64,000 nt of DNA from an uncultured Lachnospiraceae bacterium. Lineage in GTDB: Bacteria; Bacillota; Clostridia; Lachnospirales; Lachnospiraceae. Below are positions 34,421-60,802 of the stretch, piece after piece. Made by a program: the position numbers and the translations under genes. The stretch is taken from positions 1 through 64,000 of the forward strand of contig CAJOLA010000001.1 in NCBI GenBank assembly GCA_905235275.1, given 5' to 3'. Below the pieces are notes generated by a model. The model had not been told where the DNA came from, searched no databases, and worked only from the letters and a program-made list of their open reading frames with translations. Numbering within the stretch: position 1 is the stretch's first letter; each line of letters begins with the position of its first letter.

Positions 34421-35168
34421 TGCCCAAAGATAAAACGGATGAAAGTAATTGTTTGGTATACCCCTCCTTAGGATTGTCAATTACACTCCGTGCTTCTCCT
34501 TCCTCAACACATTTTCCCCTCTTAAATACCATAATGCGATCGCAAAGGCTGCTTGTAAGTGCCAAATCGTGTGACACAAATATCATTGAAATTCCACGTT
34601 TCTTCAAATTATCCAAATGCTTTACTATTACTGCCTGGGCGGATACGTCAAGAGCACTGGTGGCTTCATCGCAAAGAAGTATCTCGGGGTCAACTGCCAT
34701 CGCCCTTACTATGGCCATTCTCTGACACTGACCACCGCTGATATTTCCCGCCTTCTTTTCGAGAAGACTCTCAGGCAGCCCCATATTCCCCATCAGTTCC
34801 TTTATCTTTTGCTCCTTATCACCGTCAGGCATTATGGAATATATCTCTTTAAAAACATCCTTCATTTTTAATCTCGGGTCAAAAGAACCGACAGGATCCT
34901 GAAATACCATCTGCATTTTTCTGCAAAGCTTCTGAGGCTTACTTCCCGTATACTCCTCACCTTTAAAATAAATATTCCCCGAGGTCAGCTTATCAAGGCA
35001 TGCAATATGTCTGAGGATGGTACTTTTCCCGCTACCGCTCTCTCCGACTATGCCGAGAAACTCACCTCTCTTAAGCGTCAGATTCACATCATCCAGCGCC
35101 CTTAATTCTTTTCCGTTTTTTTTGTAAATGCGTACGGCATTCTTTACTTCAAGTAAAATATCTTCCAT
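34395..35168 (-). CDS. Importer 1: ATPase (NikE/DppF type)
   Basis: A 257-residue nucleotide-binding subunit of the peptide/nickel class: Walker A GESGSGKST, Q-loop VFQDPVGSFDPRLKMKD, signature ISGGQCQR (slightly altered from LSGGQ) and Walker B ILLCDEATSALD. It lacks the oligopeptide C-terminal extension and resembles NikE more than OppF in length. It is the fifth gene of the run SBP-permease-permease-ATPase-ATPase and is followed by the MATE gene. The substrate class (peptide, nickel or chelated metal) cannot be decided from an ATPase. Confidence 0.88.
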   Translation of the reverse strand: MEDILLEVKNAVRIYKKNGKELRALDDVNLTLKRGEFLGIVGESGSGKSTILRHIACLDKLTSGNIYFKGEEYTGSKPQKLCRKMQMVFQDPVGSFDPRLKMKDVFKEIYSIMPDGDKEQKIKELMGNMGLPESLLEKKAGNISGGQCQRMAIVRAMAVDPEILLCDEATSALDVSAQAVIVKHLDNLKKRGISMIFVSHDLALTSSLCDRIMVFKRGKCVEEGEARSVIDNPKEGYTKQLLSSVLSLGNAKQTEDN

Positions 35169-35185
35169 AACTTTCTCACTAAATT

Positions 35186-36127
35186 TTAGAAACAGGTTGC
35201 AAAATGATTCTCACTCACCTGCTTTAATTCATAAGGATTATTCGAATATTTACAGCCGCCATCCTTTTCTACAGCGCATCTTTCCTTAAATGCACACTCA
35301 ACCATTTCGGCTCCGTTAATCGGAGGCTGCCCTTCAAGACCCTTCGGGAGTTCAAAGCTGAAATCCGGTATGGCTTTTATAAGCGCTTTTGTATAAGGAT
35401 GCGCAGGTGTGTAGAGTACTTTATCTGTAGCTCCGATTTCAACCAGATGACCCGCATACATAACTCCCACTCTGTCTGCCATCATTGCAGGTATGCCGGG
35501 ATTATGCGTCACCAAAAGAATCGTTGTATTTAATTCTTCCCTGACCTTCATAAGCTCTTCTATAGCCATCTTCTGAGTCGTAACGTCCAGTGCGCTTGTC
35601 GGCTCATCGCAAAGAAGCAACGCCGGATTCAGAATCATCGTCAATGATATTGCTATTCTTTGTATCATGCCTCCGCTCATCTCATACGGACGGCTATTCA
35701 TGATTCTCTCGGCATCGGGCAGATTCATCTTTTCAAAAATAACCCGCACCTGTTCAAAATCATATTCCATGCCGTGGCTCTCAAGCGCCTCCTTAAACTG
35801 GGCTTTAAACGTACGTAGCGGATTAAATGCTCCGCCAAGGTACTGTAAAACCATTCCTATGTCTTTCCCTGCCATTTTACGTATTTCCCGGTCGGAAAAT
35901 GACATTATGTCTTTGCCTTGGAAATATATATTCCCCTCTGTTATGACGGTTGCAAGCTCAGGTATGTTTATTATCGATTTTAAAAGAGTTGATTTCCCAC
36001 AACCGCTTTCCCCCAAAAAGCAGAGAATCTCTCCTCTTTTAACGGAAAAATTAACTCCCGAAATCATATTGTTTTTTCCGTATGAGACGCTTAAGTTTTC
36101 TATGCGAAGTATTTCATCATCTTTCAT
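35186..36127 (-). CDS. Importer 1: ATPase (NikD/DppD type)
   Basis: A 313-residue ATPase with Walker A GESGCGKST, Q-loop LQYLGGAFNPLRT, a modified signature MSGGMIQR and Walker [13 protein letters not shown]. The C-terminal oligo_HPY-type extension carries four cysteines (VECAFKERCA, then GGCKY and ATCF), the spacing associated with an iron-sulfur cluster in DppD/OppD proteins. It pairs with the downstream NikE-like subunit. It overlaps the permease-C stop by 11 nt. Confidence 0.88.
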   Translation of the reverse strand: MKDDEILRIENLSVSYGKNNMISGVNFSVKRGEILCFLGESGCGKSTLLKSIINIPELATVITEGNIYFQGKDIMSFSDREIRKMAGKDIGMVLQYLGGAFNPLRTFKAQFKEALESHGMEYDFEQVRVIFEKMNLPDAERIMNSRPYEMSGGMIQRIAISLTMILNPALLLCDEPTSALDVTTQKMAIEELMKVREELNTTILLVTHNPGIPAMMADRVGVMYAGHLVEIGATDKVLYTPAHPYTKALIKAIPDFSFELPKGLEGQPPINGAEMVECAFKERCAVEKDGGCKYSNNPYELKQVSENHFATCF

Positions 36128-36971
36128 TTCGCACCTCCGTCATATCACGTACGGCATCTCCGAAAAAGTTAAAAATAAGTATCGTAATCAGCATGGCTAT
36201 GGACGGTGCAATAACGGCCCACGGAGTCAGCTGAATATAGCCTCTTGCTTCATTTATCATTGAACCCCATTCCGCCATGGGCGGCGTCACGCCAAGTCCC
36301 AGGAATGAAAGTCCGGAAATATAAATCATGGTCGTGCCAATCTGGGTGCAGGCCGTGGCAAGAAGCGGTCTGAATATGTTCGGGAATATATGTCCGAACA
36401 TAATCCTCCCGTTACTCACACCGTTTAGCTTCAGAGCCTGTATGAACGTTTCGTTTTTCATGCTGTATGTCTGACCTCTTGCGAGTCTCGCATAAAGCGT
36501 CCAACTCGTTATCCCGATGGCGATAAGAGCATTCGTAAGATTACCTCCGAGAACACCGGCAACGGCGATTGCCAGTACCATCTGAGGGAAGGCAAGCAAA
36601 GCATCGGTTATACGCATAAGTATGGCATCAACAATACCTCCGTAAAAACCGCATATCAGCCCTATTATACTTCCTCCAAAGAAAGATACCGCAACCAAAA
36701 ACAGGCTCGAGAAAATAGAGGTAAAGGCTCCTGCCAATACCCTTGAATAAACACAGCGCCCGAGACTGTCCGTACCGAAAATAAATTCGGGACCGGGACC
36801 CTGTCGCATATGCGCCGCATTCGTTGCATAAGGATCATTGGGCTCAATCAAGGGCGCAATAATGCTTATGACAAGAAGCGCTGCCGCAAGTGCCGAAAAT
36901 ATGATTAATCTTATTTTCACACTTTTATATGAAAGCTTTTTTGCTTTTGTTCTTCTTTTGAAACCTTTCAT
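36117..36971 (-). CDS. Importer 1: permease (NikC/DppC type)
   Basis: A 284-residue permease of the BPD/peptide class with an N-terminal helix, then FGTDSLGRCVYSRVLAG (the conserved FGTDxxGRD region, with Cys in place of Asp) and the EAA-type loop around ALKLNGVSNGRIMFGHIFPN. About six transmembrane helices. It forms the channel with the NikB-type permease encoded one base upstream. Confidence 0.9.
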   Translation of the reverse strand: MKGFKRRTKAKKLSYKSVKIRLIIFSALAAALLVISIIAPLIEPNDPYATNAAHMRQGPGPEFIFGTDSLGRCVYSRVLAGAFTSIFSSLFLVAVSFFGGSIIGLICGFYGGIVDAILMRITDALLAFPQMVLAIAVAGVLGGNLTNALIAIGITSWTLYARLARGQTYSMKNETFIQALKLNGVSNGRIMFGHIFPNIFRPLLATACTQIGTTMIYISGLSFLGLGVTPPMAEWGSMINEARGYIQLTPWAVIAPSIAMLITILIFNFFGDAVRDMTEVRNER

Positions 36972-36972
36972 G

Positions 36973-37911
36973 TTACCCCTGTTTCCCGTAATCTATTCTC
37001 GGATCTATAACCCTGTACAAAATATCCGTTACAAGATTAATAAATACATATACAACTGCCATTACCAGCACGACTCCCAAAACTACCGGATAGTCTCTGG
37101 CGGTAATGGAATCCATAACCAGCTTTCCGATTCCCGGCCATCTGAAAATATTCTCTATAACGACACTTCCTCCCATAAGAGTACCTATGGAAAGTCCCGC
37201 TATAGTAATCATCGCGGGCGAGGAATTATGAAGGACATTTCCGAAAACAACCTTGTTTTCCTTTACGCCCCTCGTTCGCAGACCCGTAATATACGACTTA
37301 TCCAGCTGTTCGATGACCTCGCTTCTGAACTGCTTAATAAACCTTGCACACATCGGAATTGCCAGGGACAACGCAGGCAGTACAAGACCCTGAAAAGAAT
37401 TATCGGCAATAACCGGAAAAAGATTTTGTTTTATACATAGGAAATAAATAAGCAAGGTTGCAATTAAAAAATTAGGCAGAGCACATCCGATAAACGAAAA
37501 TATCTGCACAATCACATCCAGCACCGAATTGCGATAAACCGCCGCAAGTATTCCCAACGGCAGGGAAATCGCAAGCGCCACCGCAAGCGATGACAACGCA
37601 AGCGGCAAGGTATACGAAAGCCCCTTTCCTATCTTGCCGGCCACTGAGGTATCATCCGCGTAGGATGTCCCCAAATCGCCCTTACATACACCTCCGAGCC
37701 ACGAAAAATAGCGGACCGCAAAGGGTTCGTTCAAACCCATCTTTTCACGTTCCGCCTCCAATGTCTCAGCATTAATCGGTTCGCCCCTCAGTGTCAGCTT
37801 CCTTTCGGCAGGATCACCGGGAGCTATGTACATAAGGGCAAATGTCATAATACTTACGGCAAAAAGAACAAATATAAGTTGTAAAAGTCTTTTTCCAATG
37901 AATTTGCCCAT
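36973..37911 (-). CDS. Importer 1: permease (NikB/DppB type)
   Basis: A 312-residue permease with the typical start (GKFIGKRLLQLIFVLFAVSIMTF), the conserved APGDPAERKL segment and the final LFRWPGIGKLVMDSITARDYPVV-like motif. Six helices are expected. It lies 35 bp after the solute-binding protein gene and 1 bp before the NikC-type permease, completing the membrane channel. Confidence 0.9.
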   Translation of the reverse strand: MGKFIGKRLLQLIFVLFAVSIMTFALMYIAPGDPAERKLTLRGEPINAETLEAEREKMGLNEPFAVRYFSWLGGVCKGDLGTSYADDTSVAGKIGKGLSYTLPLALSSLAVALAISLPLGILAAVYRNSVLDVIVQIFSFIGCALPNFLIATLLIYFLCIKQNLFPVIADNSFQGLVLPALSLAIPMCARFIKQFRSEVIEQLDKSYITGLRTRGVKENKVVFGNVLHNSSPAMITIAGLSIGTLMGGSVVIENIFRWPGIGKLVMDSITARDYPVVLGVVLVMAVVYVFINLVTDILYRVIDPRIDYGKQG

Positions 37912-37946
37912 AATCCTCTTCTTCTAAAACGATTAATCACCTTAAA

Positions 37947-39506
37947 TTAAAATGATGTTGTTGCGTCAATTCCGTAGAAATCAAACGGAACCTCTGCGCC
38001 AATACCCTTAATTCCCGGTTTACTTACTGTAGTCTTATTAAACAGACCCACATATCCGAAATAGTCATCATCGATTGCAATCTGAATAATCTTATTTGCA
38101 AGGTCTGCTCTCTTATCGGCATCCGTCTCAGTCTTCAACTGATCAATATACTTCTGGCATTCCTCATTCTTGAATCCGCCGGCATTATAGTATGCACCGT
38201 CAGCAAGCGTATTGTTGATGAAGTAATACGGATCTCCGTACTTATCGGTAATCATGCAGTAAAGAGCGATATCATAATCACCTGTCGTAATATATGTTTC
38301 GGTATCTTCTTCTGCTTTAAGTGTTGTATTAATACCGATAGCCTTTAACTGCTCCTGCATAAGAGTTGCAATCTTATCAAGCTCTCTTGCTTCATAATAC
38401 TTAACGGTAAGATTAATCTCTTTTCCGTCTTTCTCATAGTAGCCTTTATCGTTAAGCTTGTATCCGTCCTCTTCGATGAGCTTCTTAGCAGTCTCGGTAT
38501 CCACCAGCTTTGCGGGATTTGCAACTTTTCCGTATGCGGCAGATTCAGGGAAAGGACCGTCGGTAGCTGAAGTTGTTCCTTTAAGATATTCGGCAATCTT
38601 CTCCTTATCAACTGTTGAGTTGATGGCTTTTCTTACCTTTGCACTAACGTTATTCTCATTCAGAATGTAGAACTGACATCTCTCACCCGGGATTGACGTC
38701 AGGGTGTAACGGGAAGGATCCTGAGAGTAGATTGCAATGGCATCAGCACTTACGCTGTTATACCAGTCAATCTCTCCGTTTTGCATAGCCATAAGCTTTG
38801 AACTGTCATCCATCATATAGTAGAAATATGCACTGTCAAGATTAACGTCTCCATCCCAGTACTTCTCATTCTTCTTAACCGATACGTCTCCGCCCGGAAC
38901 AAATTTATCAATTACAAAAGGACCCGTGCAAATCGGCGCTTTATCAAAATCCGTTGTAGCGTCAAGATCCATAATACCAAGCTCAGGTGAAGCAAGCTCG
39001 TTCTTTAAAACAGGATAAGGTTCTTTCGTGTCAATCGTAAGGGTTGTATCATCAACTGCCTTATACTCGAAATCGGCATATACCTTAAATTTCTGGTTCT
39101 CCTTACCCGTTCTCTGGAAGTTCCTGATAACCATATCGGCCGTCAGCTTATTGCCGTTGGAAAATGCGGCCCTTTCATTGAGCTTAATTGTCCATACATT
39201 TCCTTCAGACTCTGCGGACTTAGCAAGAACCGGCTCAAGCTCTGAATCTTCATTAACCTTAAACATACATTCAGACATACCTTCAATAAGTGTATACCAA
39301 CCGTTGTTATCCTTATGTACATCAAGACTTTCATACGCAAATGAAACGGCAGCCTTCATATCCTTCTTTGAGGAATCCGATGTCGCAGCCGTTGTATCTC
39401 CGCCTGCCGTTGTGGGCTCACCTCCGCCACCGGAACAAGCCGCAAGGCTCATTGCTGACATAGCTGCTACGGCAGAAAAAATAATTCCTTTCGACAACTT
39501 CTTCAT
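37947..39506 (-). CDS. Importer 1: solute-binding lipoprotein (family 5, NikA-like)
   Basis: A 519-residue lipoprotein (lipobox LAAC, Cys about 24, then a Gly/Thr-rich linker). The family-5 substrate-binding fold is clear: LEPVLAKSAESEGNVWTIKL, FSNGNKLTADMVIRNF and ICTGPFVID. It captures the substrate outside the cell and delivers it to the permeases. Similarity to NikA/DppA cannot tell nickel, metal chelate or peptide apart. It is the first gene of the operon and lies about 80 bases downstream of a C5NNG6 dyad shared with other operons in the window. Confidence 0.9.
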   Translation of the reverse strand: MKKLSKGIIFSAVAAMSAMSLAACSGGGGEPTTAGGDTTAATSDSSKKDMKAAVSFAYESLDVHKDNNGWYTLIEGMSECMFKVNEDSELEPVLAKSAESEGNVWTIKLNERAAFSNGNKLTADMVIRNFQRTGKENQKFKVYADFEYKAVDDTTLTIDTKEPYPVLKNELASPELGIMDLDATTDFDKAPICTGPFVIDKFVPGGDVSVKKNEKYWDGDVNLDSAYFYYMMDDSSKLMAMQNGEIDWYNSVSADAIAIYSQDPSRYTLTSIPGERCQFYILNENNVSAKVRKAINSTVDKEKIAEYLKGTTSATDGPFPESAAYGKVANPAKLVDTETAKKLIEEDGYKLNDKGYYEKDGKEINLTVKYYEARELDKIATLMQEQLKAIGINTTLKAEEDTETYITTGDYDIALYCMITDKYGDPYYFINNTLADGAYYNAGGFKNEECQKYIDQLKTETDADKRADLANKIIQIAIDDDYFGYVGLFNKTTVSKPGIKGIGAEVPFDFYGIDATTSF

Positions 39507-40820: not shown

Positions 40821-41585
40821 TTACTTTTTGGCTTCTATCATAAACAGCGGCGTGGTTGAGTAGTTCATCTTATCAACCTTATCCCACACGATATCGGTTA
40901 CATCCGGATTAATGCTTATCTCATCAAATCCAAGCTGGCAAAGTACCTCAAAATCCCAGTCAGGTCTGTCCAGATGAGAACACGGCACACGCATTGCGAT
41001 GCTTTCCATCCATTCCGAGTTAACACCCTTTTGCTTTTCCTTATCGGTAATATTAAGCTCTTTAACCCTCTGCCTTTCGGCATCATGAGCCTTTTTCATG
41101 TCATTATTACAGAGATACCTGTACCAGTTGGCATCAAAATTAAGCATCTTACCGCCCTTTTTAAGAACTCTCTGCCATTCCCTGTAAGCAATTCCCGGAT
41201 ATTCAAGATTCCATGTAAGATTCCTTGATACAATAAGATCAAAGGTATTATCCTCGAATTGAAGCTTCTTGGCATCCATCCTCTCGAAGGTAATGTTACC
41301 CAAAAGATCTCCGGCATTCTTTTTGGCTTTTTCAAGCATCTCCTGCGTATAATCAACGGCATTCACATGATATCCTGCCTCCGCAAGAATAATCGGGAAA
41401 AATCCCGGCCCCGTACCTATATCAAGAATCCTGATATCCTTTTTCTCCTTTTCGGGCATATGCGAGCACATCAAATCCCGCCACATGCCCTTTTTCATGC
41501 TTGCAAGCTCTTCTTTGTTTAAGTCCGAATATCCTTCGGCCCTGTTCGTCCAATAATCCTGAATTTCTCCCAACAATTGACTCAT
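40821..41585 (-). CDS. Class I SAM-dependent methyltransferase 1
   Basis: A 254-residue Rossmann-fold methyltransferase with motif I ILDIGTGPGFFPIILAE (about residues 51-67), the acidic ribose-binding residue in VNAVDYTQEML, and the segment SRNLTWNLEYPGIAYREWQRVLKKGGKMLNFD in place of the usual post-II/III region. It shares the 'NR/SRxLxWxLxxPxxAxxxW' pattern with the two other methyltransferases here, so the three are one family. The acceptor substrate is unknown. It is a single-gene unit with its own terminator. Its promoter carries the same GC-tract dyad as importers 1 and 2, which links it to metal or peptide uptake. Confidence 0.82.
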   Translation of the reverse strand: MSQLLGEIQDYWTNRAEGYSDLNKEELASMKKGMWRDLMCSHMPEKEKKDIRILDIGTGPGFFPIILAEAGYHVNAVDYTQEMLEKAKKNAGDLLGNITFERMDAKKLQFEDNTFDLIVSRNLTWNLEYPGIAYREWQRVLKKGGKMLNFDANWYRYLCNNDMKKAHDAERQRVKELNITDKEKQKGVNSEWMESIAMRVPCSHLDRPDWDFEVLCQLGFDEISINPDVTDIVWDKVDKMNYSTTPLFMIEAKK

Positions 41586-41699: not shown

Positions 41700-43400
41700 T
41701 TAAGGGATATTTTCAAAAAATTCTTCAGTTTCTCTTTCTCTGATTCCATCCTTTGTCATCTCGATGATTTTGCCGGCATTTCTAACCGTTGTAAGTCTGT
41801 GCGCAATAACAAAGGTTGTCCTGTTTTTAGCCAATCTGTCCATGGATTCCTGGACTATTCTTTCACTGTCATTATCCAGTGCGCTTGTCGCCTCATCAAA
41901 TATCAGAATGGGAGGATTCTTAAGGAATACCCTGGCTATTGAGAGTCTTTGCTTCTGACCTCCGGAAAGCTTTACGCCTCTTTGTCCGATGTCCGTGTCA
42001 TATCCGTCCGGAAGCGCCATTATGAAGTCATGCGCATTCGCATTTTTGGCGGCTTCTATAACCTCTTCTCTCGTTGCGTCGGGGCGTCCGTAGAGGATAT
42101 TTTCATAAACTGTTCCTATGAACAGATACACATCCTGCTGCACAACACCGATATTATCCCTCAGACTTTTTTGCGTAACGTCCCGAATGTCCTGCCCGTC
42201 AATCCGGATACTGCCGTCGCTTATGTCATAAAATCTCGGTATAAGACTTACCAGCGTGGTTTTTCCTATTCCGGACGGACCCACAATCGCATAGTATGCC
42301 CCGGCCGGCACCTCAAGGTTTACGTTTTCAAAAACCGTCTCTTTGTTCTCGCCGTATTGGAACTCAACATTTTCAAAAGACACGTTCCCCTTTACGTCCT
42401 TTAACTCAACCGCACCCGGCTTATCCTGAATATCGGGAAAGATATCGAGAATCTCGATAAATCTCTCAAATCCCGAATAACCGTTTTGGAACATCTCCGT
42501 AAAATCTATCATGGTCTTAATCGGTTCGGTAAGCACATTTATATAAAGCAGAAATGCCATCATATCGGCAACGTCCAGACTGCCGTGGCTTATCATTATT
42601 CCTCCGACCACCAAAACGAGAACCGTCATCATTGCCGTTATTGCTTTAAGACCGGCATTATATCCTCCCATATATCTGTATGAATCACGCTTTGCCTTCA
42701 GGAACTCTTTGTTCCCCTTTCCGAATTTATTATTTTCGATATCTTCATTTGCAAAGGATTTCACCACCCGGATACCGGAAAGCGAATCTTCCACCTGGGC
42801 ATTAACATCTCCTATGGTCTCACGATTCCTTTTAAAGGCCGCTTTCATTCTTTTGTTATAAAAGTAAGCAAATATAAGCATAACGGGAAGCAGGATAAAT
42901 GCGGCAAGCGTAAGCGGCGGACTTATGATAATCATAATTATAAATGCACCGACAATTCTGATAAATGAAATGACGATATTCTCCGGACCGTGGTGAAGAA
43001 GCTCCGTTATATCAAAAAGGTCCGCCGTAATCCTGGAAAGAAGTCCGCCCGTATTCTGGTTATCATAGAAGGAAAATGAGAGCTTCTGATAATGCTCGAA
43101 TATCTCACTTCGCATGTTATATTCTATCTTCGCTCCCATAACATGTCCCACATATGCTATGTAGTAATTACAAAAATACTGCACCACGATAAGACCGGTA
43201 AGAATAGCTCCTGCAATGCTTACACTGACAACCGCCTCCTGAACCGGACGCTCGGCAATTACATTAACCACATATCTGACCGCAAAAGGAATAACAAGAG
43301 CGATTAATGCGGATATAATGGCACACACCATATCCGTATAGAATTCTTTTTTGTATGGCTTATAGTATGACCCGAGCCTTTTTAAATTCTTCCAAAACAT
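41700..43400 (-). CDS. ABC exporter, fused membrane and ATPase domains
   Basis: A 566-residue half-transporter of the MsbA/LmrA class. Six transmembrane helices occupy about residues 15-300, and the ATPase domain has Walker A GPSGIGKTT (about 375), signature LSGGQKQRLSIARVFLKNPP and Walker B ILIFDEATSALD. It should work as a homodimer, since no partner half-transporter is adjacent, and exports lipids, peptides or small molecules. It has its own candidate promoter and a GAGGA ribosome site. It lies between two methyltransferase genes in the metal/peptide uptake region, so export of a small ligand is conceivable. The substrate is unknown. Confidence 0.9.
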   Translation of the reverse strand: MFWKNLKRLGSYYKPYKKEFYTDMVCAIISALIALVIPFAVRYVVNVIAERPVQEAVVSVSIAGAILTGLIVVQYFCNYYIAYVGHVMGAKIEYNMRSEIFEHYQKLSFSFYDNQNTGGLLSRITADLFDITELLHHGPENIVISFIRIVGAFIIMIIISPPLTLAAFILLPVMLIFAYFYNKRMKAAFKRNRETIGDVNAQVEDSLSGIRVVKSFANEDIENNKFGKGNKEFLKAKRDSYRYMGGYNAGLKAITAMMTVLVLVVGGIMISHGSLDVADMMAFLLYINVLTEPIKTMIDFTEMFQNGYSGFERFIEILDIFPDIQDKPGAVELKDVKGNVSFENVEFQYGENKETVFENVNLEVPAGAYYAIVGPSGIGKTTLVSLIPRFYDISDGSIRIDGQDIRDVTQKSLRDNIGVVQQDVYLFIGTVYENILYGRPDATREEVIEAAKNANAHDFIMALPDGYDTDIGQRGVKLSGGQKQRLSIARVFLKNPPILIFDEATSALDNDSERIVQESMDRLAKNRTTFVIAHRLTTVRNAGKIIEMTKDGIRERETEEFFENIP

Positions 43401-43514: not shown

Positions 43515-44339
43515 TTATTTCCTGGTTAAAATGTAAGCAAACCTTTTATGCTCTCCGGATGAGAGCCATTCGTCATCCGCAAACAGCTTGCGTTCTATAT
43601 CTTCGACATTAGTGAGTCGGATTATCTGCGCATCGACTCCCTCCCTCTGAATATAGTCTGCAACTTCCTTTTTGCCGGATCTTGACGGAAGATTATCATT
43701 CATTTCCTTGGTATATACACGGCCTCCATGCCCTTTATGTCCATGACCGTGATGACCGTGTCCGTGTTCGTGAGAATGTTCACACCCTTCCTCATGAGAA
43801 TGCCCGTGCTCATGCTCACCCTCATGGCAATGCTCTGCATTATCGCGCTCTTTTGATTTGTTCGCATATGCTTTCCAGTCGCCGTCAATAATGATGACTT
43901 TTCCGCCGGGTTTAACAACCTTAATCCAGCTGTCAATCGCTTCACCCGGATGAGGCAGTGTCCACAGGAGATGTCTGTTAATAACAACATCATATTCATT
44001 CTCCGGCTCGTCCAATTTCTCGGCATCACCTATCGTAAATGAAACCCTCTCTTCCAGTCCCTGCTCTTTTACTTTTCTTTTGGCATCCGCCTGCATACCT
44101 TCGGATATGTCAAGGCCTTTGACCGTGTGCCCCATCTCCGCCAAAAGCAACGTCAGAAAGCCGGTACCGCATCCGACATCAAGTACCTTCGCCCCTTCGG
44201 GAACAATCTCTCTTAATGCCTTTATCCATTCCTGCTTTTCTTCCTCTTCGAACAGACCGTGTCCGGGAGCCGTATCATAATCAACACTTCCGGCATCCCA
44301 ATATTTAACAACCTCTTCCTTAAACTTTTTATCTTCCAT
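43515..44339 (-). CDS. Class I SAM methyltransferase 2 with His-rich insert
   Basis: About 274 residues from the ATG at 44339. This start aligns with that of the paralogue methyltransferase 3 (MEDK..KE.V..YWD), so the track start at 44378 is too long. SAM motif I is VLDVGCGTGFLTLLLAE, with the family segment NRHLLWTLPHPGEAIDSW. Between the core and the C-terminal part lies a stretch of about 30 residues made almost only of His, Gly and Glu (EGEHEHGHSHEEG...). It is absent from methyltransferase 3, so it is an insertion. Such tracts bind Ni, Co or Zn in hydrogenase and urease maturation proteins. The gene follows the importer-2 ATPase by 19 nt and is very likely in that operon. The methyl acceptor is unknown. 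Confidence 0.82.
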   Translation of the reverse strand: MEDKKFKEEVVKYWDAGSVDYDTAPGHGLFEEEEKQEWIKALREIVPEGAKVLDVGCGTGFLTLLLAEMGHTVKGLDISEGMQADAKRKVKEQGLEERVSFTIGDAEKLDEPENEYDVVINRHLLWTLPHPGEAIDSWIKVVKPGGKVIIIDGDWKAYANKSKERDNAEHCHEGEHEHGHSHEEGCEHSHEHGHGHHGHGHKGHGGRVYTKEMNDNLPSRSGKKEVADYIQREGVDAQIIRLTNVEDIERKLFADDEWLSSGEHKRFAYILTRK

Positions 44340-44358: not shown

Positions 44359-45237
44359 TTATACTTCTTCCAGGACAAAATGTCCCGGAGTTACTTCAAT
44401 CATTTTTTCTCCCAACTGCCTGTCAGTATCATATTCCAAAAAGGTTTTGTTTCTTTCATATTCCGGATCGGGTATATGAATGGCAGAAAGCAGTGACTTC
44501 GTATAAGGATGAACCGGATTATTAAACAACTCCTCCGTCTCACCCAGCTCCACCAGCCTGCCTCTTAGCATAACCCCCACCCTGTCGCTTATAAATCTTA
44601 CAACCGACAGATCATGGGCTATGAACAAAAACGTAAAATTATTTTCTTTTTGTAAATGTTTAAAAAGATTTATAATCTGCGCCTGTATTGATATATCAAG
44701 AGATGCAACAGGCTCATCCGCCACGACAAGTTTGGGTTCCATCATCAGACTTCTTGCTATGGCAACTCTCTGACGTTGGCCGCCGGATAATTCCTGCGGA
44801 TATTTTGACAGATAACTTGCATCCAGTCCTGATTTTGAAAGTATAAAATCAAGTCTTTCTTTTGTTTTCGCGCTGTTTACGGGTATATGGTTAATCTCCA
44901 ACGGCTCCAATATTATCTTTTGAACCGTCAACTTGGGATTAAGGGCCGCACCGGAATCCTGGAAAATCATCTGCACTTCTTTATGCATTCTGTTGATGGT
45001 GGCTTTCTCCTGTACTGACTCTCCCCTGTACAGGACATCTCCTCCCGTCGGTCTGTACATACCGCAAATAGCCCTTGCAGTCGTCGACTTACCGCATCCT
45101 GTCTCCCCCACGAGACCGAACACTTCACCGTCCTTAATGTCAAGCGATATACCGTCTACGGCTTTAACCGTATAATCCTCGTCTATCTTAAAGTGCAGTT
45201 GCAGATCCTTAACATCTACTATTGTATCTGCTGCCAT
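44359..45237 (-). CDS. Importer 2: ATPase (OppF type)
   Basis: A 292-residue ATPase with Walker A GETGCGKST, Q-loop IFQDSGAALNPKLTVQK, signature LSGGQRQR and Walker B LVVADEPVASLD. A C-terminal oligopeptide-type extension ends it. This is the OppF-like subunit of the second importer. It overlaps the OppD-like gene by 19 nt and is followed by the His-rich methyltransferase. Confidence 0.9.
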   Translation of the reverse strand: MAADTIVDVKDLQLHFKIDEDYTVKAVDGISLDIKDGEVFGLVGETGCGKSTTARAICGMYRPTGGDVLYRGESVQEKATINRMHKEVQMIFQDSGAALNPKLTVQKIILEPLEINHIPVNSAKTKERLDFILSKSGLDASYLSKYPQELSGGQRQRVAIARSLMMEPKLVVADEPVASLDISIQAQIINLFKHLQKENNFTFLFIAHDLSVVRFISDRVGVMLRGRLVELGETEELFNNPVHPYTKSLLSAIHIPDPEYERNKTFLEYDTDRQLGEKMIEVTPGHFVLEEV

Positions 45238-46253
45238 AATGCGCTCCTTTTCCTGAGATTAACAGGCGATACCACCCTTGGCGCCCTTTCATCAAGGAGC
45301 CACGTGGCCGCACTGTGTGTTTCCGAAACAGGAAACATCGGCGGTTCTTTTTCATAATCTATTGCCATTGCATATTTGTTGCGTACGGCAAATGCATCGC
45401 CCGGAGGCGGATCTATGAGAATCGGTGGCATGCCCTGTATGAAATTCAACTCACCGTCCTTTTTGGCAAGCGCGGGAAGTGATGATAACAATCCCCACGT
45501 ATACGGATGCCTCGGGTCGTAATAAATATCCTCGGCAGTACCAATCTCAACAATCTTTCCGGCATACATAACCGCAACCCTGTCGGCAACCTTTGCAACG
45601 GCACCGAGATCATGAGATATGAATATCATTCCTAAGTTTAATTTAGTACGGATATCCAGCAAAAGATTAAGTATCTTTTCCTCCACCGTCACATCAAGCG
45701 CGGTCGTTGCTTCATCCGCAAAAAGTATCTTTGGCTCTGAGGCAAGCGCCACCGCAATGACGCATCTTTGTCTCATACCTCCCGAAAAGAAATGCGGCTG
45801 CAGTTTGAATCGCTCATTGGCATCTCTTATACCGACAAGATCAAGCAGTTCGATTGCCCGCGCTTTTGCCTCTTCATTACTTACCTTTTTATGCTTTTGA
45901 ATGGCTTCGGTTATCTGCTTACCGATCGGTATCGTCGGATTCAAGGTAGTCATGGGATCCTGAAATACCATGGAAAGCTTTCCGCCCCTGAGCTGCCTCA
46001 TCTTTTTCTCGTTGTAGTCCGTAATATCTTCACCGTCAACAATAATGCTACCGCTTTTGATATGTGCATTCTTTGGCAACAGCTTCATTACGGATTTACA
46101 CATTACGGTTTTGCCGCAGCCCGATTCGCCGACTACGCCAAGTATTTCCCCGGGCTTTAGCTGCAGGCTTACATTTCTTACCGCCTGCACTTCCCCTTTC
46201 GGCGTGTCAAAGGATATCGACAAATTATTCAGTTCTAAAAGGTTTCCACTCAT
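45219..46253 (-). CDS. Importer 2: ATPase (OppD/AmiE type)
   Basis: A 344-residue ATPase from the ATG at 46253, which overlaps the stop of the solute-binding protein as ATGA; the track start is an upstream GTG. Walker A is GESGCGKTV, signature FSGGMRQR, Walker B ILFADEATTALD. The C-terminal extension reads GDAFAVRNKYAMAIDYE...ATWLLDERAP. Here all four cysteines found in importers 1, 3 and 4 are replaced, the form I recall from Streptococcus/Bacillus OppD/AmiE. This suggests importer 2 is closer to true oligopeptide systems. Confidence 0.9.
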   Translation of the reverse strand: MSGNLLELNNLSISFDTPKGEVQAVRNVSLQLKPGEILGVVGESGCGKTVMCKSVMKLLPKNAHIKSGSIIVDGEDITDYNEKKMRQLRGGKLSMVFQDPMTTLNPTIPIGKQITEAIQKHKKVSNEEAKARAIELLDLVGIRDANERFKLQPHFFSGGMRQRCVIAVALASEPKILFADEATTALDVTVEEKILNLLLDIRTKLNLGMIFISHDLGAVAKVADRVAVMYAGKIVEIGTAEDIYYDPRHPYTWGLLSSLPALAKKDGELNFIQGMPPILIDPPPGDAFAVRNKYAMAIDYEKEPPMFPVSETHSAATWLLDERAPRVVSPVNLRKRSALWQQIQ

Positions 46254-47857
46254 CTGCTGATAGTCCACTCTTCAATATTCCACATAACACCGACTGCGTG
46301 ATGTCCCAATGTTCTTGTTGTATCAGGTCCCGTAAGTCCCTTTACTCCGACATAGTTACCCTGGAGATAAACTAAGAGGAGTACACCGGGTTTTTGTGCA
46401 TAAGTCTTTTCAAAGTTAGAATACGCCGTTTTTCTTTCAGCTTCAGTCTTAGCGTAACGTCCTTCTTCAAGAATCTTATCAACGTCCGGATTTGAGTAAT
46501 GCATGTTGTTACTGCTTCCGGTTGTTGTGTACTGTCTGTAAATCATATCCGGGTCAAACTCGGTAGCATATCCTGCGAGGAATCCGTTATAACCCTTCTT
46601 CCAATCAAATTTTTGAACGAATACGATTTCCATCTCTACGCCGACCTGCTTAAGCATATTGGATACAACGTTTGCGATATCCACACGCTCCTCTTCCCAC
46701 TCTCTTGTCTGAATGGTGAAGTGGAATTTCTGACCGTTTCTTTCATAGATACCGTCTGAGCCCTTCTTCCATCCGAGTTTTTCCATCTCAGATGCGAACT
46801 TATCTTTGTCATATGAATAGATGTCGGCAGCCTTATCCGTTCCCAAAGGATTTCTCTGAATCGGTGAATAAGCAGTCTCACCCTGACCTACAAGAACGCT
46901 GTCTACGATTGCCTTTTTATCAACCGCATAGTTAAGAACACCGATTGAGTCTGCGTTATCCTTCCAGAAATCAGAGCTCATATCCATTGATGCAGCACGG
47001 TAATCGGCTGTCGTAAATACCCACTGCTTAAAGTTATCATTGCCGTTAAAAGTAGCGGCATATTTTGAATTAAGCCATGCAAGATCGGCTTCGCCCGCCT
47101 GTATCATGGTAGCTTTGGTTGTCTCATCACCTACTGTTTTGTAAACAAGTGTCTCAATGTTTGGAACCTTGTCATAATAGTCTGAATTAGCAGTGAAGGT
47201 AATCATTCCACCGTCGGTATCCCATGATTTAAGCTTATATTTACCGGTACCTACAGGCTTATGGTTATATTCGGTAGTTTCAAGATCCTGTCCCTCGAAG
47301 AGATGCTCCGGAATAATTCCGATTGTAAAATATGTCTCTATGGGAAGCATGAGTTTGCTCAACTTAATCTCAACGGTATAATCATCCTTCTTATTAACCG
47401 AAGAAATGTCTTCATAATCAGTTCTTATTCCATCTGCAAGTGCTTCATCTTCCAGAATTCTCTTATATGTATAAACCACATCATCCGCATTAAAAGGTTC
47501 ACCGTCGTGCCACTTTACGCCCTGACGAAGTTTAAATGTATAAGTAAGCGCTCCTTCATCAAAGCTGTAGCTTTCAGCAAGATCTTCCGTAGGCTTTCCG
47601 TTTGCATCAAGCTTTAAAAGACCTGAGTAAACGATTCTTGTCAGCTCTCCGTGTGTATCAAGGAGCGGATTAATGCTGTCAACCTCTTCGCCTGCATATA
47701 CAAGCGTATTGTCAAGATTTGAGGAAGGCGCCGCCGTTGAAGCGGATTCACCTGATGAAGCCGCGGGGCTTTCGGGTGTTCCTGAAGAACATGCAGCCAT
47801 TGAAGCAGCCATAACACCAACTAATGCAAGTGATGCAAATTTCATTGTTTTTTTCAT
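46250..47857 (-). CDS. Importer 2: solute-binding lipoprotein (family 5)
   Basis: A 535-residue lipoprotein (lipobox MAAC, Cys about 23, Ser/Ala/Pro-rich linker). Family-5 features include DINPLLDTHGELTRIVYSGL-like start, VKWHDGEPFNADDVVYTYKRI and VGTGKYKLKSWD. It resembles AppA/OppA-type binding proteins for peptides more than NikA, but family-5 proteins also bind metal chelates. In this operon it is third, after both permeases, unlike the other three importers where it comes first. Confidence 0.9.
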   Translation of the reverse strand: MKKTMKFASLALVGVMAASMAACSSGTPESPAASSGESASTAAPSSNLDNTLVYAGEEVDSINPLLDTHGELTRIVYSGLLKLDANGKPTEDLAESYSFDEGALTYTFKLRQGVKWHDGEPFNADDVVYTYKRILEDEALADGIRTDYEDISSVNKKDDYTVEIKLSKLMLPIETYFTIGIIPEHLFEGQDLETTEYNHKPVGTGKYKLKSWDTDGGMITFTANSDYYDKVPNIETLVYKTVGDETTKATMIQAGEADLAWLNSKYAATFNGNDNFKQWVFTTADYRAASMDMSSDFWKDNADSIGVLNYAVDKKAIVDSVLVGQGETAYSPIQRNPLGTDKAADIYSYDKDKFASEMEKLGWKKGSDGIYERNGQKFHFTIQTREWEEERVDIANVVSNMLKQVGVEMEIVFVQKFDWKKGYNGFLAGYATEFDPDMIYRQYTTTGSSNNMHYSNPDVDKILEEGRYAKTEAERKTAYSNFEKTYAQKPGVLLLVYLQGNYVGVKGLTGPDTTRTLGHHAVGVMWNIEEWTISR

Positions 47858-47876
47858 TACTGATCTCCTCCGTCAA

Positions 47877-48848
47877 TTATAAATTACTTGGGGTTTTGGT
47901 AGTTTCTTTTCTGTAGAAGTTTGCCATATTGGTTATGCATACAAGAGTTGTTATAACAAAAATACCCGGTACGATAATTACCCACCATGTATTCAAAACC
48001 AAAGCTTTATTGGCCAGGGATAACATGCTACCCCAAGAGATAACATCTACGGGCAATCCAAGGCCAAGGAAACTGAGTGTCGATTCCGTAGTTATCGCCG
48101 TGCCCACTGACGAAACTGCCGCAAACATAATGGCAGCTACAAAATTCGGTATCAGGTGCGTTTTAAATATGTAGAAGAATCTGCCTCCGGCACTCCTTGC
48201 ATATATAACGTAATCGCTGTTCCTGATCTGGCGCACCTCGCTTCGCACGATACGTGCCAGTCCGAACCACGCCGTTATACCTATCACGACCGACAGCGTC
48301 ACAACGTTATTGGAACTAAATACCGCCGTAACAACGAGAATGATAAGTATGGACGGAATACTTCCGCTCATCTCCGTTATTCTCATGAGTATGGAATCAA
48401 CACGCGCCGATGCCGTTCCGCTCAGACTTCCGTAAACGGTACCGATAATCGTCGTAATGGCGGCCCCCAGAAGACCGACTATGATTGACGTTCGACCGCC
48501 GTACCAGATCATGGAATATATGTCTCTTCCAAGCGAATCCGTTCCGAATAAGAATTCGGAATTGGGTGCCTGATTGATATGGTCAAGATAGAACCCGTTG
48601 GGATCGTGATTTGCAAGAATCGGCGCTATTATGCAACCGAATGCTATTGCGCAAAATACGATAAGAGAGGCAATGGGCTTGCCCTTCATCTTCTCTCTGA
48701 ATGTCTGCTTCTTAAACTGCGGAGTGTGGATTTTGTATTCGGGCCCAACAATCCGAAACATGTCTTTATCATTTTCGATCTGTATATCGACGTTCGGTTC
48801 TTCCGCAGACACGGCTTTATTCTTTTCGAAAACTGCGTTTTTCACCAT
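47877..48848 (-). CDS. Importer 2: permease (OppC type)
   Basis: A 323-residue permease with a long N-terminal cytosolic extension of about 60 residues before the first helix, a feature of OppC/AmiD proteins. Conserved FLFGTDSLGRDIYSMIWYGGRTS follows the first helix, and the coupling loop RSAGGRFFYIFKTHLIPN contacts the ATPase. It overlaps permease B by 7 nt and precedes the solute-binding protein by 19 bp. Confidence 0.9.
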   Translation of the reverse strand: MVKNAVFEKNKAVSAEEPNVDIQIENDKDMFRIVGPEYKIHTPQFKKQTFREKMKGKPIASLIVFCAIAFGCIIAPILANHDPNGFYLDHINQAPNSEFLFGTDSLGRDIYSMIWYGGRTSIIVGLLGAAITTIIGTVYGSLSGTASARVDSILMRITEMSGSIPSILIILVVTAVFSSNNVVTLSVVIGITAWFGLARIVRSEVRQIRNSDYVIYARSAGGRFFYIFKTHLIPNFVAAIMFAAVSSVGTAITTESTLSFLGLGLPVDVISWGSMLSLANKALVLNTWWVIIVPGIFVITTLVCITNMANFYRKETTKTPSNL

Positions 48849-49840
48849 CTTATCTCCTTAGTTACTTTCATTCTCGGATCAATCTGTTCGTTGATTGCCT
48901 GAGCCACAAAGCTTGCGAAAAATACAAACGCCCCGGTAAGCAATACGGTTGTCATGAGCATGTTATAGTCGTGTAATTTCGCGCTCTCAACCGCCAGGTT
49001 ACCTATGCCCGGATATCCGAACACGGCTTCCACCACGACCGTTCCCGATATAACGTGCGGTATCGCTATCGCCATAATACTTACTATGGTAGGACCGACA
49101 TTTCTCAGACAATGCTTCCAAACTATCTGTCTTCTCGTAAGACCTTTAGATTTTGCAAGAAGCACATAATCCTTTCGGAATTCGTCCAGGAGCTTGTTTC
49201 TTATCATGTATGCGTAGTACCAGAAATGACTCGCAATCATTACAATCAGAGGCAGAATCATATGCCATATTCTGTTCCCCAGGTCGTTTTGCTTTCCGAC
49301 GTCGTAAGCGCCGCTGCTCGGAAACCATCCGAGGTTAACGCTAAATATCAATACCAGTACAACACCCAGCCAAAACGGAGGAATGTAATAGGTTGCCGTT
49401 CCGACCTTACAGATAATCTTGTCAAGCAAATCGTCTTCATGAAGTGCGGCAACCGTCGCCAAAACTATCGCAAGAACAAATACGACAATATATGCCGTTA
49501 TACCAAGCGCTAACGTATTACCAATCAGAGGACCCATGACATCCTGAACCTTCATCTTATATTTCAGGGATAATCCGAAGTCACCGTGAAGAGCTCCTCC
49601 AAGCCATTTGAAGTATTGAACGAAAAGATTATCATCTAGACCGAGTCTCGCTCTGGCAGCCGCAATCTGCTCATCATTCATGCTGTCCAATGCTTCCCCG
49701 TAAAATGCCTGCAGCGGATCTCCCGGCGCAAGCCTTGCAAGAATGAACACAACTACGGACAGTATGAACATCGCAATTACGAATAAAATTACATACTTAA
49801 TTGTTTTTTTAATTATTTTATTTCTTTTTTTGCTTTTCAT
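48842..49840 (-). CDS. Importer 2: permease (OppB type)
   Basis: A 332-residue permease beginning with a Lys/Arg-rich cytosolic start, then a first helix, the conserved ARLAPGDPLQAFYG motif and the coupling loop SKGLTRRQIVWKHCLRN. It is the first gene of the importer-2 operon, about 60 bases downstream of a GC-tract dyad and a candidate promoter. Confidence 0.9.
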   Translation of the reverse strand: MKSKKRNKIIKKTIKYVILFVIAMFILSVVVFILARLAPGDPLQAFYGEALDSMNDEQIAAARARLGLDDNLFVQYFKWLGGALHGDFGLSLKYKMKVQDVMGPLIGNTLALGITAYIVVFVLAIVLATVAALHEDDLLDKIICKVGTATYYIPPFWLGVVLVLIFSVNLGWFPSSGAYDVGKQNDLGNRIWHMILPLIVMIASHFWYYAYMIRNKLLDEFRKDYVLLAKSKGLTRRQIVWKHCLRNVGPTIVSIMAIAIPHVISGTVVVEAVFGYPGIGNLAVESAKLHDYNMLMTTVLLTGAFVFFASFVAQAINEQIDPRMKVTKEIRW

Positions 49841-50044: not shown

Positions 50045-50782
50045 TCATCTGTATTGTGGTTTTCTGATTACATATGCTTCTCTTTTGTAATTATCATTGG
50101 AAAGCCAATCATTATCGACATACTTTTTTCTTTCAAGATTGTCGATATCTTTAAGACTTACTATGGTTATTTCATAACCGTCTCTGTCTATGTAATCAAA
50201 AGGCTTACCTTCACCTCTGTGCAACGGAAGGTTTTGTATGAGCTCTTCAGAGTATGAATTATCATCATTTTTGTCTTTATGATCTTCTGCCTTTACTTCT
50301 CTGCTTATACTGTTCCAATCTCCGTCAATAATGATCACACACCCTCCCGGTTTCGTTACACGGATCCATTCATCAACAGCTTCCCTCGGATGAGGCAGCG
50401 TCCATAAAAGATGCCTGTTAATAACGACATCAAATTTGTCATCCTCTTCGCCGGTGTTTTCCGCGTCCGCAATGTCAAAAGTAACGCGGCTCACAAGTCC
50501 TGCTTCGCTTACCTTTCTTTTTGCATCACTTTGCATGCCTTCGGATAAATCTATACCTTTTACGTTATATCCAAGCTCTGCAAGAAGCAGTGTCAAAAAT
50601 CCGGTACCGCATCCGACATCAAGAATGTCCTTTGTATCAACCGGTACAATGTTTTGTAAGAATTTTAACCATGCCTGTTTTTCATCATCACCTTTTAATC
50701 CGTGGCCGTCCTGGGCATCATAATCCTTACATCCGATATCCCAGTATCTTGCCACCTGCTCTTTTATTTCTTTGTCTTCCAA
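50045..50782 (-). CDS. Class I SAM-dependent methyltransferase 3
   Basis: A 245-residue methyltransferase with motif I ILDVGCGTGFLTLLLAE and the family segment NRHLLWTLPHPREAVDEW, close in sequence to methyltransferase 2 but without the His-rich insert. The likely start is a TTG at 50782, two bases after the stop of the importer-3 ATPase, with only a weak ribosome site, so translation probably depends on coupling. It is the last gene of the importer-3 operon, before a strong terminator. The acceptor is unknown. Confidence 0.82.
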   Translation of the reverse strand: MEDKEIKEQVARYWDIGCKDYDAQDGHGLKGDDEKQAWLKFLQNIVPVDTKDILDVGCGTGFLTLLLAELGYNVKGIDLSEGMQSDAKRKVSEAGLVSRVTFDIADAENTGEEDDKFDVVINRHLLWTLPHPREAVDEWIRVTKPGGCVIIIDGDWNSISREVKAEDHKDKNDDNSYSEELIQNLPLHRGEGKPFDYIDRDGYEITIVSLKDIDNLERKKYVDNDWLSNDNYKREAYVIRKPQYR

Positions 50783-50784
50783 TT

Positions 50785-51414
50785 TTACACATCTGCCCTT
50801 TCTATATGATTTAATTCAGGTAGTTCTATTATACTTGTGCATACCCTTTCCGCAAGTGATTTGTTGTGGGTAATGATCATCATCCCCAGCTCCCGCTTCT
50901 TTGCTTCATCAAGAAGGAGATTCCAAATCTGCGCCTGGGTAATGGCATCAAGCATCGTTGTAATCTCATCACATATCAAAAATTTTGTTTTTGGTGAAAG
51001 AACTCTTGCTATACAAAATCTCTGCAGCTCTCCACCCGATAACTCAGACGGCCATCTGGTAAACCATTTTTTCTCAATGCCCATTCGACCGAGAAGGTCG
51101 TCATCCGGCACCCATGCCTCTTCTAAAATATCCTTCATCTTAAGACGCGGGTTAACGGAAAATTCGGGATGCTGATAAATCATCTGAACCGGTGAATATC
51201 CCTTTTTCGGAAGATCGCCCCCGTCAAGAGACACGCTCCCCGCCAAGGGCTTCAAGTATCCTGCAAGGATCTTTGCTAGTGTACTTTTACCGTAACCGGA
51301 TGGTCCAACAACACCAACCCTCTCACCGCTGTTTATGGTTATTGATATATCTTTTAATATCCACGGGCTTTTTTTTGTGTATTTAAAGTTAATATTCTCA
51401 CCCGTCAGCTGCAT
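50785..51414 (-). CDS. Importer 3: short ATPase (NikE/OppF position)
   Basis: A 209-residue ATPase from the ATG at 51414, chosen over the GTG at 51420 because GAGGTG lies five bases upstream. Walker A GPSGYGKST, Q-loop IYQHPEFSVNPRLKMKD, signature LSGGELQR, Walker B FLICDEITTMLD. It lacks any C-terminal peptide-transport extension and is shorter than most OppF/NikE proteins. Its closest relative in the window is the importer-4 copy. It overlaps the upstream ATPase by about 17 nt. Confidence 0.88.
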   Translation of the reverse strand: MQLTGENINFKYTKKSPWILKDISITINSGERVGVVGPSGYGKSTLAKILAGYLKPLAGSVSLDGGDLPKKGYSPVQMIYQHPEFSVNPRLKMKDILEEAWVPDDDLLGRMGIEKKWFTRWPSELSGGELQRFCIARVLSPKTKFLICDEITTMLDAITQAQIWNLLLDEAKKRELGMMIITHNKSLAERVCTSIIELPELNHIERADV

Positions 51415-52318
51415 GTGCACACCTCACCTTTCCCCCTCTGACCTCCGTCATCGGAATATTTCCTGCGCATTTGTCATCTCTTAACCAACATCTCGGAGAA
51501 AACAGACATCCCGACGGCAAATCGCCGGCGTATGGCTGAGTTCCCCTGATGGGCGTGAAATCATTTTGCGGAAGAGCCTTAATAAGCGACTGAGAATACG
51601 GGTGTCTCAGTTTATCGCTGTTATGAACAAAGTCCTCAACCGGTGCAAGCTCCAAAACCGAGCCCGCATAAAAAACGGCAATACGATCGGCAACCCCCAG
51701 CGCCAGATCAATGTCATGTGTTATGAGAAGGATTCCCGTACCGTTATCTGCCAGCTCCCTGAAATCCTTCAGCGCCTCAAGTGCCATCTTAAGATCGAGA
51801 CCCGGCGTCGGCTCATCGGCTATTATTAAATCGGGCCTTCCCATAAGAGCCGATGTTACAAGAATTCTTCTTGACATACCTCCCGAGCACTGGAACGGAT
51901 ATTTTTCTTCCGTGCCCTTGGGCAGATTATATTGTTCAAAAAGCTCTTCCTGTCTCTCCTTGGTTCCGTTAACGCCGATAACCTGATCCCCCACTTTCAT
52001 GACGGGATCAAGGTGATCGACTGACTGGGGGATATAAGCTATATCCTTCCCCAGGTATTTTCTGATTGATTTTTCATCAATATCGTTTCCCTTATAAGTA
52101 ACTTCTCCCGTAACCGTTGCATTTTTCGGAAGCAATCCCAAAACCGCCTCCGCAAGAATACTTTTTCCGGAACCGCTCGATCCCACCACGGCGACTATCT
52201 CACCCTTGTTGATATCGAGCGAGAGCTGATGAATAACCTCCAGCTCATACTTATGGAAACCTTTTTTATACATACTGAAAGAAACCAGCAGATCTTTTAC
52301 TTTTAATAATTCTTCCAT
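51398..52318 (-). CDS. Importer 3: ATPase (NikD/DppD type)
   Basis: A 306-residue ATPase with Walker A GSSGSGKSI, Q-loop IPQSVDHLDPVMKV, an altered signature CSGGMSRR and Walker B LIIADEPTPGLD. The C-terminal extension keeps four cysteines (GCLFSPRC, DDKCA, VRCAH) in the pattern of iron-sulfur-binding DppD tails. It pairs with the short ATPase. The importer-4 copy is nearly the same in every motif. Confidence 0.88.
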   Translation of the reverse strand: MEELLKVKDLLVSFSMYKKGFHKYELEVIHQLSLDINKGEIVAVVGSSGSGKSILAEAVLGLLPKNATVTGEVTYKGNDIDEKSIRKYLGKDIAYIPQSVDHLDPVMKVGDQVIGVNGTKERQEELFEQYNLPKGTEEKYPFQCSGGMSRRILVTSALMGRPDLIIADEPTPGLDLKMALEALKDFRELADNGTGILLITHDIDLALGVADRIAVFYAGSVLELAPVEDFVHNSDKLRHPYSQSLIKALPQNDFTPIRGTQPYAGDLPSGCLFSPRCWLRDDKCAGNIPMTEVRGGKVRCAHAADG

Positions 52319-52332
52319 ACTGACTCCTTTCG

Positions 52333-53178
52333 TTATTCATTACCGGTATTAGGATTAAGAAGATGCTTAAGTCCTTCACCTATCAGATCAAAAAAGATTA
52401 CCGCTATAAGAAGCATCAGACCCGGGAATACCGCCAGCCACCATTTTCCGGTAACTATATGCGTCATGGCTTCCGCAAGAATAACACCGATTGCCGGCAG
52501 CTCTTTTGGAAGTCCGAATCCCAAAAACGTAACTGATGATTCATGCATAATCGCATGCGGAAACAGAAGGGTCACACCGATAAAGTACACCGGCAATATA
52601 TGCGGAATAATGTGCTTTACTGCAACCTGCCATCTGGTTTTTCCCATCTTATAGGCAGCAAGAACGTACTGGGAGCTTCTTACCTGCAATACCTCCTGCC
52701 TGATCATTCGGGTCATGGACGGCCAGTGCGTTACCGCAACGGCAACGGTTATACCGAGTACGCCTTTTCCCATCATGAACGAAATAAGGATTAGAAGTAC
52801 AAGGTGAGGAAGACCCATACAAAGATCGACCGCAAAGTTTACAACCCTGTCAACCCATCCTCCAAATACTGCAGACAATATACCCATTACTATGGCTATT
52901 ACGGAACTGATTGCCACGGCAATAAGTCCTATTACCATACTGATGGATAAACCCTTTACGGATCTAAAGAACATGTCTCGCCCCAGATTATCGGTTCCAA
53001 ACCAATGCTCACCTGAAGGCGGTAAAAATTTGGTATCAAAATTTACCGCGTATGAATCCTCCCCGAGACAGCATCCCCAGATGAATATTCCCAAAAGATA
53101 TATCAGGGCAATAATCATCGTTATAAGGAGTACGACTCTTTGGTTCATAAGCCCGGTCTTTTTATATATTTTATGCAT
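52333..53178 (-). CDS. Importer 3: permease (NikC/DppC type)
   Basis: A 281-residue permease with WFGTDNLGRDMFFRSVKG and the coupling loop AYKMGKTRWQVAVKHIIPH. Six helices are expected. It overlaps the NikB-type permease by 8 nt. The importer-4 copy differs at few positions. Confidence 0.9.
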   Translation of the reverse strand: MHKIYKKTGLMNQRVVLLITMIIALIYLLGIFIWGCCLGEDSYAVNFDTKFLPPSGEHWFGTDNLGRDMFFRSVKGLSISMVIGLIAVAISSVIAIVMGILSAVFGGWVDRVVNFAVDLCMGLPHLVLLILISFMMGKGVLGITVAVAVTHWPSMTRMIRQEVLQVRSSQYVLAAYKMGKTRWQVAVKHIIPHILPVYFIGVTLLFPHAIMHESSVTFLGFGLPKELPAIGVILAEAMTHIVTGKWWLAVFPGLMLLIAVIFFDLIGEGLKHLLNPNTGNE

Positions 53179-59224: not shown

Positions 59225-59258
59225 AATAAGACACGGGAAGTTATTCCCGTGTCTTATT
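59225..59258 (-). terminator. Perfect 15-bp hairpin after importer 4
   Basis: aataagacacgggaa-gtta-ttcccgtgtcttatt is a perfect inverted repeat that begins at the importer-4 ATPase stop codon. The T-run on the minus strand after it is weak, but the stem is strong, and it separates importer 4 from the 5'-nucleotidase. Confidence 0.75.
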
Positions 59259-60788: not shown

Positions 60789-60802
60789 CACAACCTCCTC
60801 TC

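Follow-up and report, generated by a model that had tools for sequence, protein, structure and literature searches.

What would a dense histidine tract do inside a SAM-dependent methyltransferase? Chaperones, GTPases and a prolyl isomerase are known to have histidine-rich segments for nickel, and the literature searched contained no report of one within a SAM methyltransferase from an importer operon. The question is raised by a 64,000-nucleotide stretch (hereafter, the window; contig CAJOLA010000001.1, positions 1 to 64,000) from an uncultured Lachnospiraceae bacterium, in which a sequence-only reading had noticed a His-, Gly- and Glu-rich run in the product of the gene at 43515-44339 and had suggested metal-dependent activity or sensing.

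The histidine-rich loop and its conservation

The gene (minus strand, ATG at 44339) was delineated from its ORF and translation and encodes a 274-aa class I SAM-dependent methyltransferase, with a Rossmann core, the GxGxG motif (DVGCGTGFL from residue 54) and a Pfam match to Methyltransf_11 (1.2e-22). No NCBIfam equivalog scores above its cut-off for this protein. The best NCBIfam match of the core is the corrinoid protein-associated methyltransferase CpaM (NF043040), at 82.3 bits, short of the cut-off of 180; no corrinoid protein is found among the annotated neighbours. A fold search with the core returned 1,650 PDB matches at E <= 0.001, which place it among generic methyltransferases and offer no pointer to a substrate.

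The tract occupies residues 169-207 (43719..43835, minus strand; EHCHEGEHEHGHSHEEGCEHSHEHGHGHHGHGHKGHGGR), of which 15 are His, 10 Gly and 8 Glu. The run reported between the SAM core and the C-terminal part is thus real and, at 39 residues, slightly longer than the approximately 30 originally claimed. Its His density is unique in the window (15 in 39 residues; the runner-up among ORFs of at least 100 aa has 5), with a binomial probability of ~9e-17 at the local His frequency. The His codons are mixed (10 CAT and 5 CAC), Gly is encoded by four codons, and a tandem-repeat scan of the whole window found no array at the tract; given these features and the conservation at saturated synonymous divergence described below, we rejected repeat slippage or a sporadic repeat as its origin. 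Elsewhere in the window, a 102-bp tandem repeat (25884-26131, 2.4 copies) lies inside the ORF 25769-27301. In an AlphaFold2 model of the protein (shallow alignment, mean pLDDT 68), most of the core exceeds a pLDDT of 90 and residues 169-224, located between beta-5/alpha-E and beta-6, fall below 50; this segment is predicted to be disordered.

Orthologues of the protein were found in 3 of the 11 genomes of the genus, namely, that of the window, G303 (83% identity) and G302 (76%), all encoding 274 aa; these are the only tract-bearing orthologues known, and the genomes are draft or metagenome-assembled. The three tracts contain 15, 17 and 15 His, respectively. Synonymous divergence among the orthologues is saturated (pS 0.72-1.0), and pN is higher in the tract (0.16-0.25) than in the rest of the gene (0.08-0.14), yet far below pS. 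Nevertheless, 12 columns hold His in every one of the three proteins, several of them with CAT/CAC exchanges, whereas simulated neutral drift of the tract DNA over distances of 0.5-1.5 left a mean of 2-5 His and never 15. Because the invariant columns persist at saturated pS and drift alone loses the His, the tract is under selection for composition and, over the C-terminal half (HSHxHGHGHHxHGH-KGHGG), for sequence as well. Dense in His and conserved among orthologues, it resembles in this respect the UreE/HypB/SlyD-type segments of nickel chaperones, which bind several Ni(II) per monomer.

It could still be argued that low-complexity sequence merely fills a disordered loop tolerant of length change. 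The first half of the tract varies among the orthologues, and the equivalent loop varies greatly among paralogues, from short charged linkers to a ~45-residue D/K/S-rich version in L051. However, sporadic low-complexity sequence, the outcome that would have undone the original claim, is not what the homologues display: both other orthologues keep the tract, with its length conserved and the 12 His columns intact, and the neutral simulation does not preserve them. This explanation is already largely refuted, and we regard it as scarcely credible.

The same family variation changes how the tract relates to the fold. The paralogous methyltransferase encoded at 50045..50782 (minus strand), recognised by alignment to the protein, lacks the tract and is 62% identical over residues 1-169 and 35% identical over residues 205-272, so that the good alignment claimed for both sides stands for the N-terminal side and is moderate for the C-terminal one. 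A discrete insertion is accordingly seen relative to this paralogue, but the loop varies in length and composition across the family, and the tract is a special occupant of a loop that tolerates change, not a segment cut into a fixed structure. As originally supposed, such a tract is unusual in a methyltransferase, being present in 3 of the 76 family members collected. In the tree, the three tract-bearers cluster together inside a clade specific to the genus, which is most simply explained by a single origin of the tract. A distant clade of the family, mostly composed of AstE/AspA-fused proteins or second members of tandem pairs, has a conserved NHAH/NHTH/N[C/I/L]AH motif in the same loop, and the two kinds of loop might be functionally akin. 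A scan of the genome contigs found L037, an orthologue, and L038, a distant member of the family; its other matches were unrelated UbiG/PrmC-like proteins.

Importers surrounding the methyltransferase gene

The window contains four importers of the nickel/peptide type, all on the minus strand, whose substrate-binding proteins (SBPs) have relatives in three structurally solved classes of nickel binders. The His-tract gene begins 19 bp downstream of importer b (44359..49840), which comprises two permeases, an SBP_bac_5 SBP (46250-47857) and two ATPases. The best PDB matches of this SBP are 8efz (5e-103), the name of which carries no metal, and 4oet (2.5e-68), which is titled a peptide-binding protein and which we take to be CjNikZ. 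All three share an LGHH motif near the C-terminus, the His pair of which presumably provides a nickel ligand in CjNikZ. The order of importer b and the His-tract gene is kept in G302 and G303; a P0002-type gene lies directly upstream in G302, and another importer and further genes intervene in G303.

The remaining importers flank this unit. Importer a (34395..39506) is NikA-like, with 3t66 (SaNikA) and 4ofj as the solved relatives of its SBP. At higher coordinates come a DUF4198 protein (PF10670; 39969..40721, minus strand) and a third, more distantly related member of the methyltransferase family, recognised by sequence comparison and tree (40821..41585, minus strand); in the tree, the latter groups with the Lachnospiraceae clade that contains the first methyltransferase of MT-M14-MT fusions, in which two SAM methyltransferases flank an AstE/AspA-type domain. 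On the other side, importer c (50785..55809) is YpYntA-like, its SBP matching 4ofl (1.5e-77), and importer d (59258..64000), with an SBP that runs beyond the window end, is a duplicate of importer c (83-87% identity for ATPases and permeases, 61% for the SBP). No riboswitch or other Rfam RNA was matched in the window.

The SBPs of importers a, b and c are thus each near a different class of solved nickel-binding SBP (3t66/4ofj, 4oet and 4ofl, respectively), and the genome encodes urease. On these resemblances, nickel is a well-supported candidate for the importer cargo, and the His-tract gene probably belongs to a nickel-uptake operon. Because the SBPs tested score below the NCBIfam cut-offs for NikA equivalogs (best 134-302 bits against 393 and 600), peptide transport has to be weighed: the importers would carry peptides instead of nickel, and the methyltransferases, together with the AstE/AspA-like hydrolase present in relatives, would process them. 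SBP_bac_5 does include peptide binders, and AstE/AspA-type M14 proteins belong to a family of amide hydrolases, but the closest named solved relatives of the SBPs bind nickel, and peptide import does not predict the co-occurrence with urease reported below. We assign this alternative a small probability.

The association with importers extends well beyond the genus. Among 39 family loci outside it (40 from the Lachnospiraceae sample plus L038, minus two without a called member; L038 and L159 are on the same contig, so that one locus is entered twice), an SBP_bac_5 importer lies within two genes at 30 and directly adjoins the methyltransferase gene at 20. The suggestion that the tract might track with nickel importers was not borne out, inasmuch as tract-less relatives adjoin the same kind of importer. 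An AstE/AspA-type M14 gene is present at 17 of the 39 loci, and several are fused as MT-M14 or MT-M14-MT; no description of this arrangement of methyltransferase, AstE/AspA-type protein and importer was found in the literature searched. The MT-M14-MT fusions at the Lachnospiraceae loci L151, L169, L170 and L172 are ~820-856 aa long and are encoded beside nickel/peptide-type importers, and shorter M14-MT fusions occur elsewhere. At L048, L055 and L056, two methyltransferase domains of the family reside in one protein of ~500-550 aa.

Downstream of the His-tract gene, at a distance of 114 bp, lies a gene for an ABC exporter-type protein (41700..43400, minus strand; TMD and NBD, Pfam ABC_membrane and ABC_tran), which has the same position in L037/G303. 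The beta-5/beta-6 region often forms the substrate pocket in class I methyltransferases. The loop could be imagined as a metal switch, in which bound metal opens or closes the substrate pocket such that methylation answers to cellular metal, the substrate being, for example, a metallophore that the exporter would secrete. The position of the loop on the expected substrate side, the nearby exporter and the NHAH/NHTH or N[C/I/L]AH motif in the same loop of the related clade are consistent with such a switch. However, the closest paralogues, with a charged loop and no His run, are presumably active, no metallophore synthase was recognised among the annotated neighbours, and the exporter gene is absent from this position in G302. 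On balance, a switch seems unlikely.

Urease and other metal-handling proteins

Urease is encoded by all three tract-bearing genomes, in line with the nickel setting proposed for the tract, as are the importers of nickel-SBP class in the window. Across the 11 genomes of the genus, urease alpha was found in 5 of the 7 that encode the methyltransferase family and in none of the 4 that do not; the two family-positive, urease-negative genomes are 70% and 88% complete. We also compared 299 Lachnospiraceae genomes, almost every one representing a different genus: 15 of the 21 urease-positive genomes encode the family, compared with 26 of the 278 others (Fisher p = 2.7e-10, in a test that ignores the kinship of genera). 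The urease-positive genomes are those with a match at E < 1e-40; because the family was sought with P0001 at E <= 1e-20, some of its members may have escaped detection. The co-occurrence with urease is a property of the methyltransferase family, not of the tract.

For HypA, the distribution within the genus is reversed (0 of 7 family-positive versus 4 of 4 family-negative genomes), and in the 299 genomes its link to the family is weak (17/81 versus 24/218, p = 0.02-0.04). As regards hydrogenase, the parallel originally drawn with hydrogenase and urease maturation proteins falls, HypA not being found in the tract-bearing genomes; a link to hydrogenase maturation is not supported for this lineage, none of the 7 family-positive genomes of the genus having a HypA match, and LarA had no match in them either. 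Prismane/CODH proteins are patchy and offer no guidance, PF03063 also covering hybrid-cluster protein. The nickel setting is better supported than the sequence-only reading had means to tell, and the likely nickel user is urease rather than hydrogenase. No genome of the genus encodes both HypA and the methyltransferase family (4 versus 7 genomes), as if the genus were split into hydrogenase-type and urease-type nickel users.

The urease operon of the window genome (G000:C5) has three structural genes and, after them, genes arranged as would be expected for ureE, ureF, ureG and ureD (UreE and the UreG-type GTPase confirmed by Pfam, the other accessory genes by position and resemblance). Its UreE, like that of G303, ends in SSVNSHTH and has no His-rich tail. 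In G300 (L201:1-2834, G300:C19), a gene for an AstE/AspA-type hydrolase adjoins the urease genes.

Other His-rich proteins of the window genome were sought with a DNA pattern for HxHxHxHxH, which occurs at three loci only: the His-tract gene, a COG0523/CobW GTPase and a repressor of the metal-sensing CsoR/RcnR type. The GTPase (L146:4150-5559, G000:C24) has ~150 residues of HD/HE repeats, after which the frame appears to shift, perhaps through an error of the MAG assembly; the repressor (L147:4192-4698, G000:C44; PF02583) has a His-rich segment before its domain and relatives in G302 and G303. The company of the tract is thus metal-handling families, not specifically nickel ones, and these His-run proteins could equally point to zinc. 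Conceivably, the tract would then be a buffer for zinc, or for divalent metals in general, unrelated to nickel or urease. The longest His tract of the genome is that of the COG0523 GTPase, whose family includes a zinc-linked subset (PMC2770081), and a cation efflux protein is encoded on the same contig. Set against this are the CjNikZ-like importer as operon partner and the co-occurrence of the family with urease, and we consider a general buffer of this kind quite unlikely.

A putative nickel relay and its significance

The reading that we prefer, with a probability of about 0.5, is that the His loop, on a methyltransferase associated with nickel import, captures nickel in the cytosol and feeds urease. 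The protein would be a cytosolic SAM-dependent methyltransferase of a nickel-acquisition island, with the loop as a putative metal-binding segment, most likely for Ni(II). The loop might catch or buffer the nickel delivered by the neighbouring CjNikZ-like importer and hold it ready for urease maturation; the UreE of this lineage has no His-rich tail. Because the loop lies in the beta-5/beta-6 substrate-pocket region, it may also hold metal beside an imported chelator that the enzyme would methylate. Since it is a lineage-specific elaboration and tract-less family members share the same setting, the tract is more plausibly an extra nickel buffer or relay than something that the methyltransferase reaction requires; the tract-less paralogues likewise imply that it is dispensable for the core role of the family.

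The closest parallels are the His-rich tails of UreE, HypB and SlyD, which are also flexible His-rich segments on a folded protein of nickel handling, and in SlyD the domain bearing the tail is an enzyme. Here, however, the putative metal binder is a loop within a SAM methyltransferase rather than a tail at one end, and the UreE of the lineage itself is without one. Similarly, COG0523/UreG GTPases have His stretches in some family members only, and these have been proposed to compensate for a missing UreE (PMC2770081); in our case, the domain is a methyltransferase instead of a G3E GTPase, and UreE is present. Opine-like zincophore clusters include extra methyltransferases, but a His tract is not reported in those (PMC7438024), and no CntL/CntM-type genes were recognised among the annotated neighbours in the window.

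More tentatively, and as a possibility that we hold with low confidence, the loci may represent a nickel-acquisition system not yet described, based on one or two SAM methyltransferases that are frequently accompanied by an AstE/AspA-type hydrolase and sometimes fused with it as MT-M14-MT. The methyltransferases would chemically alter a nickel chelate once it has been imported into the cytosol, and the His-loop enzyme would receive the released nickel and pass it to urease. The methyltransferase, AstE/AspA-type protein and importer set, linked statistically to urease, is a candidate for determining the fate of nickel chelates after uptake. The larger find is the methyltransferase family that accompanies urease across Lachnospiraceae, here in a rumen-type gut bacterium. 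Urease-positive bacteria of the rumen and gut set ammonia free from urea, and their supply of nickel thus matters for nitrogen cycling in the gut.
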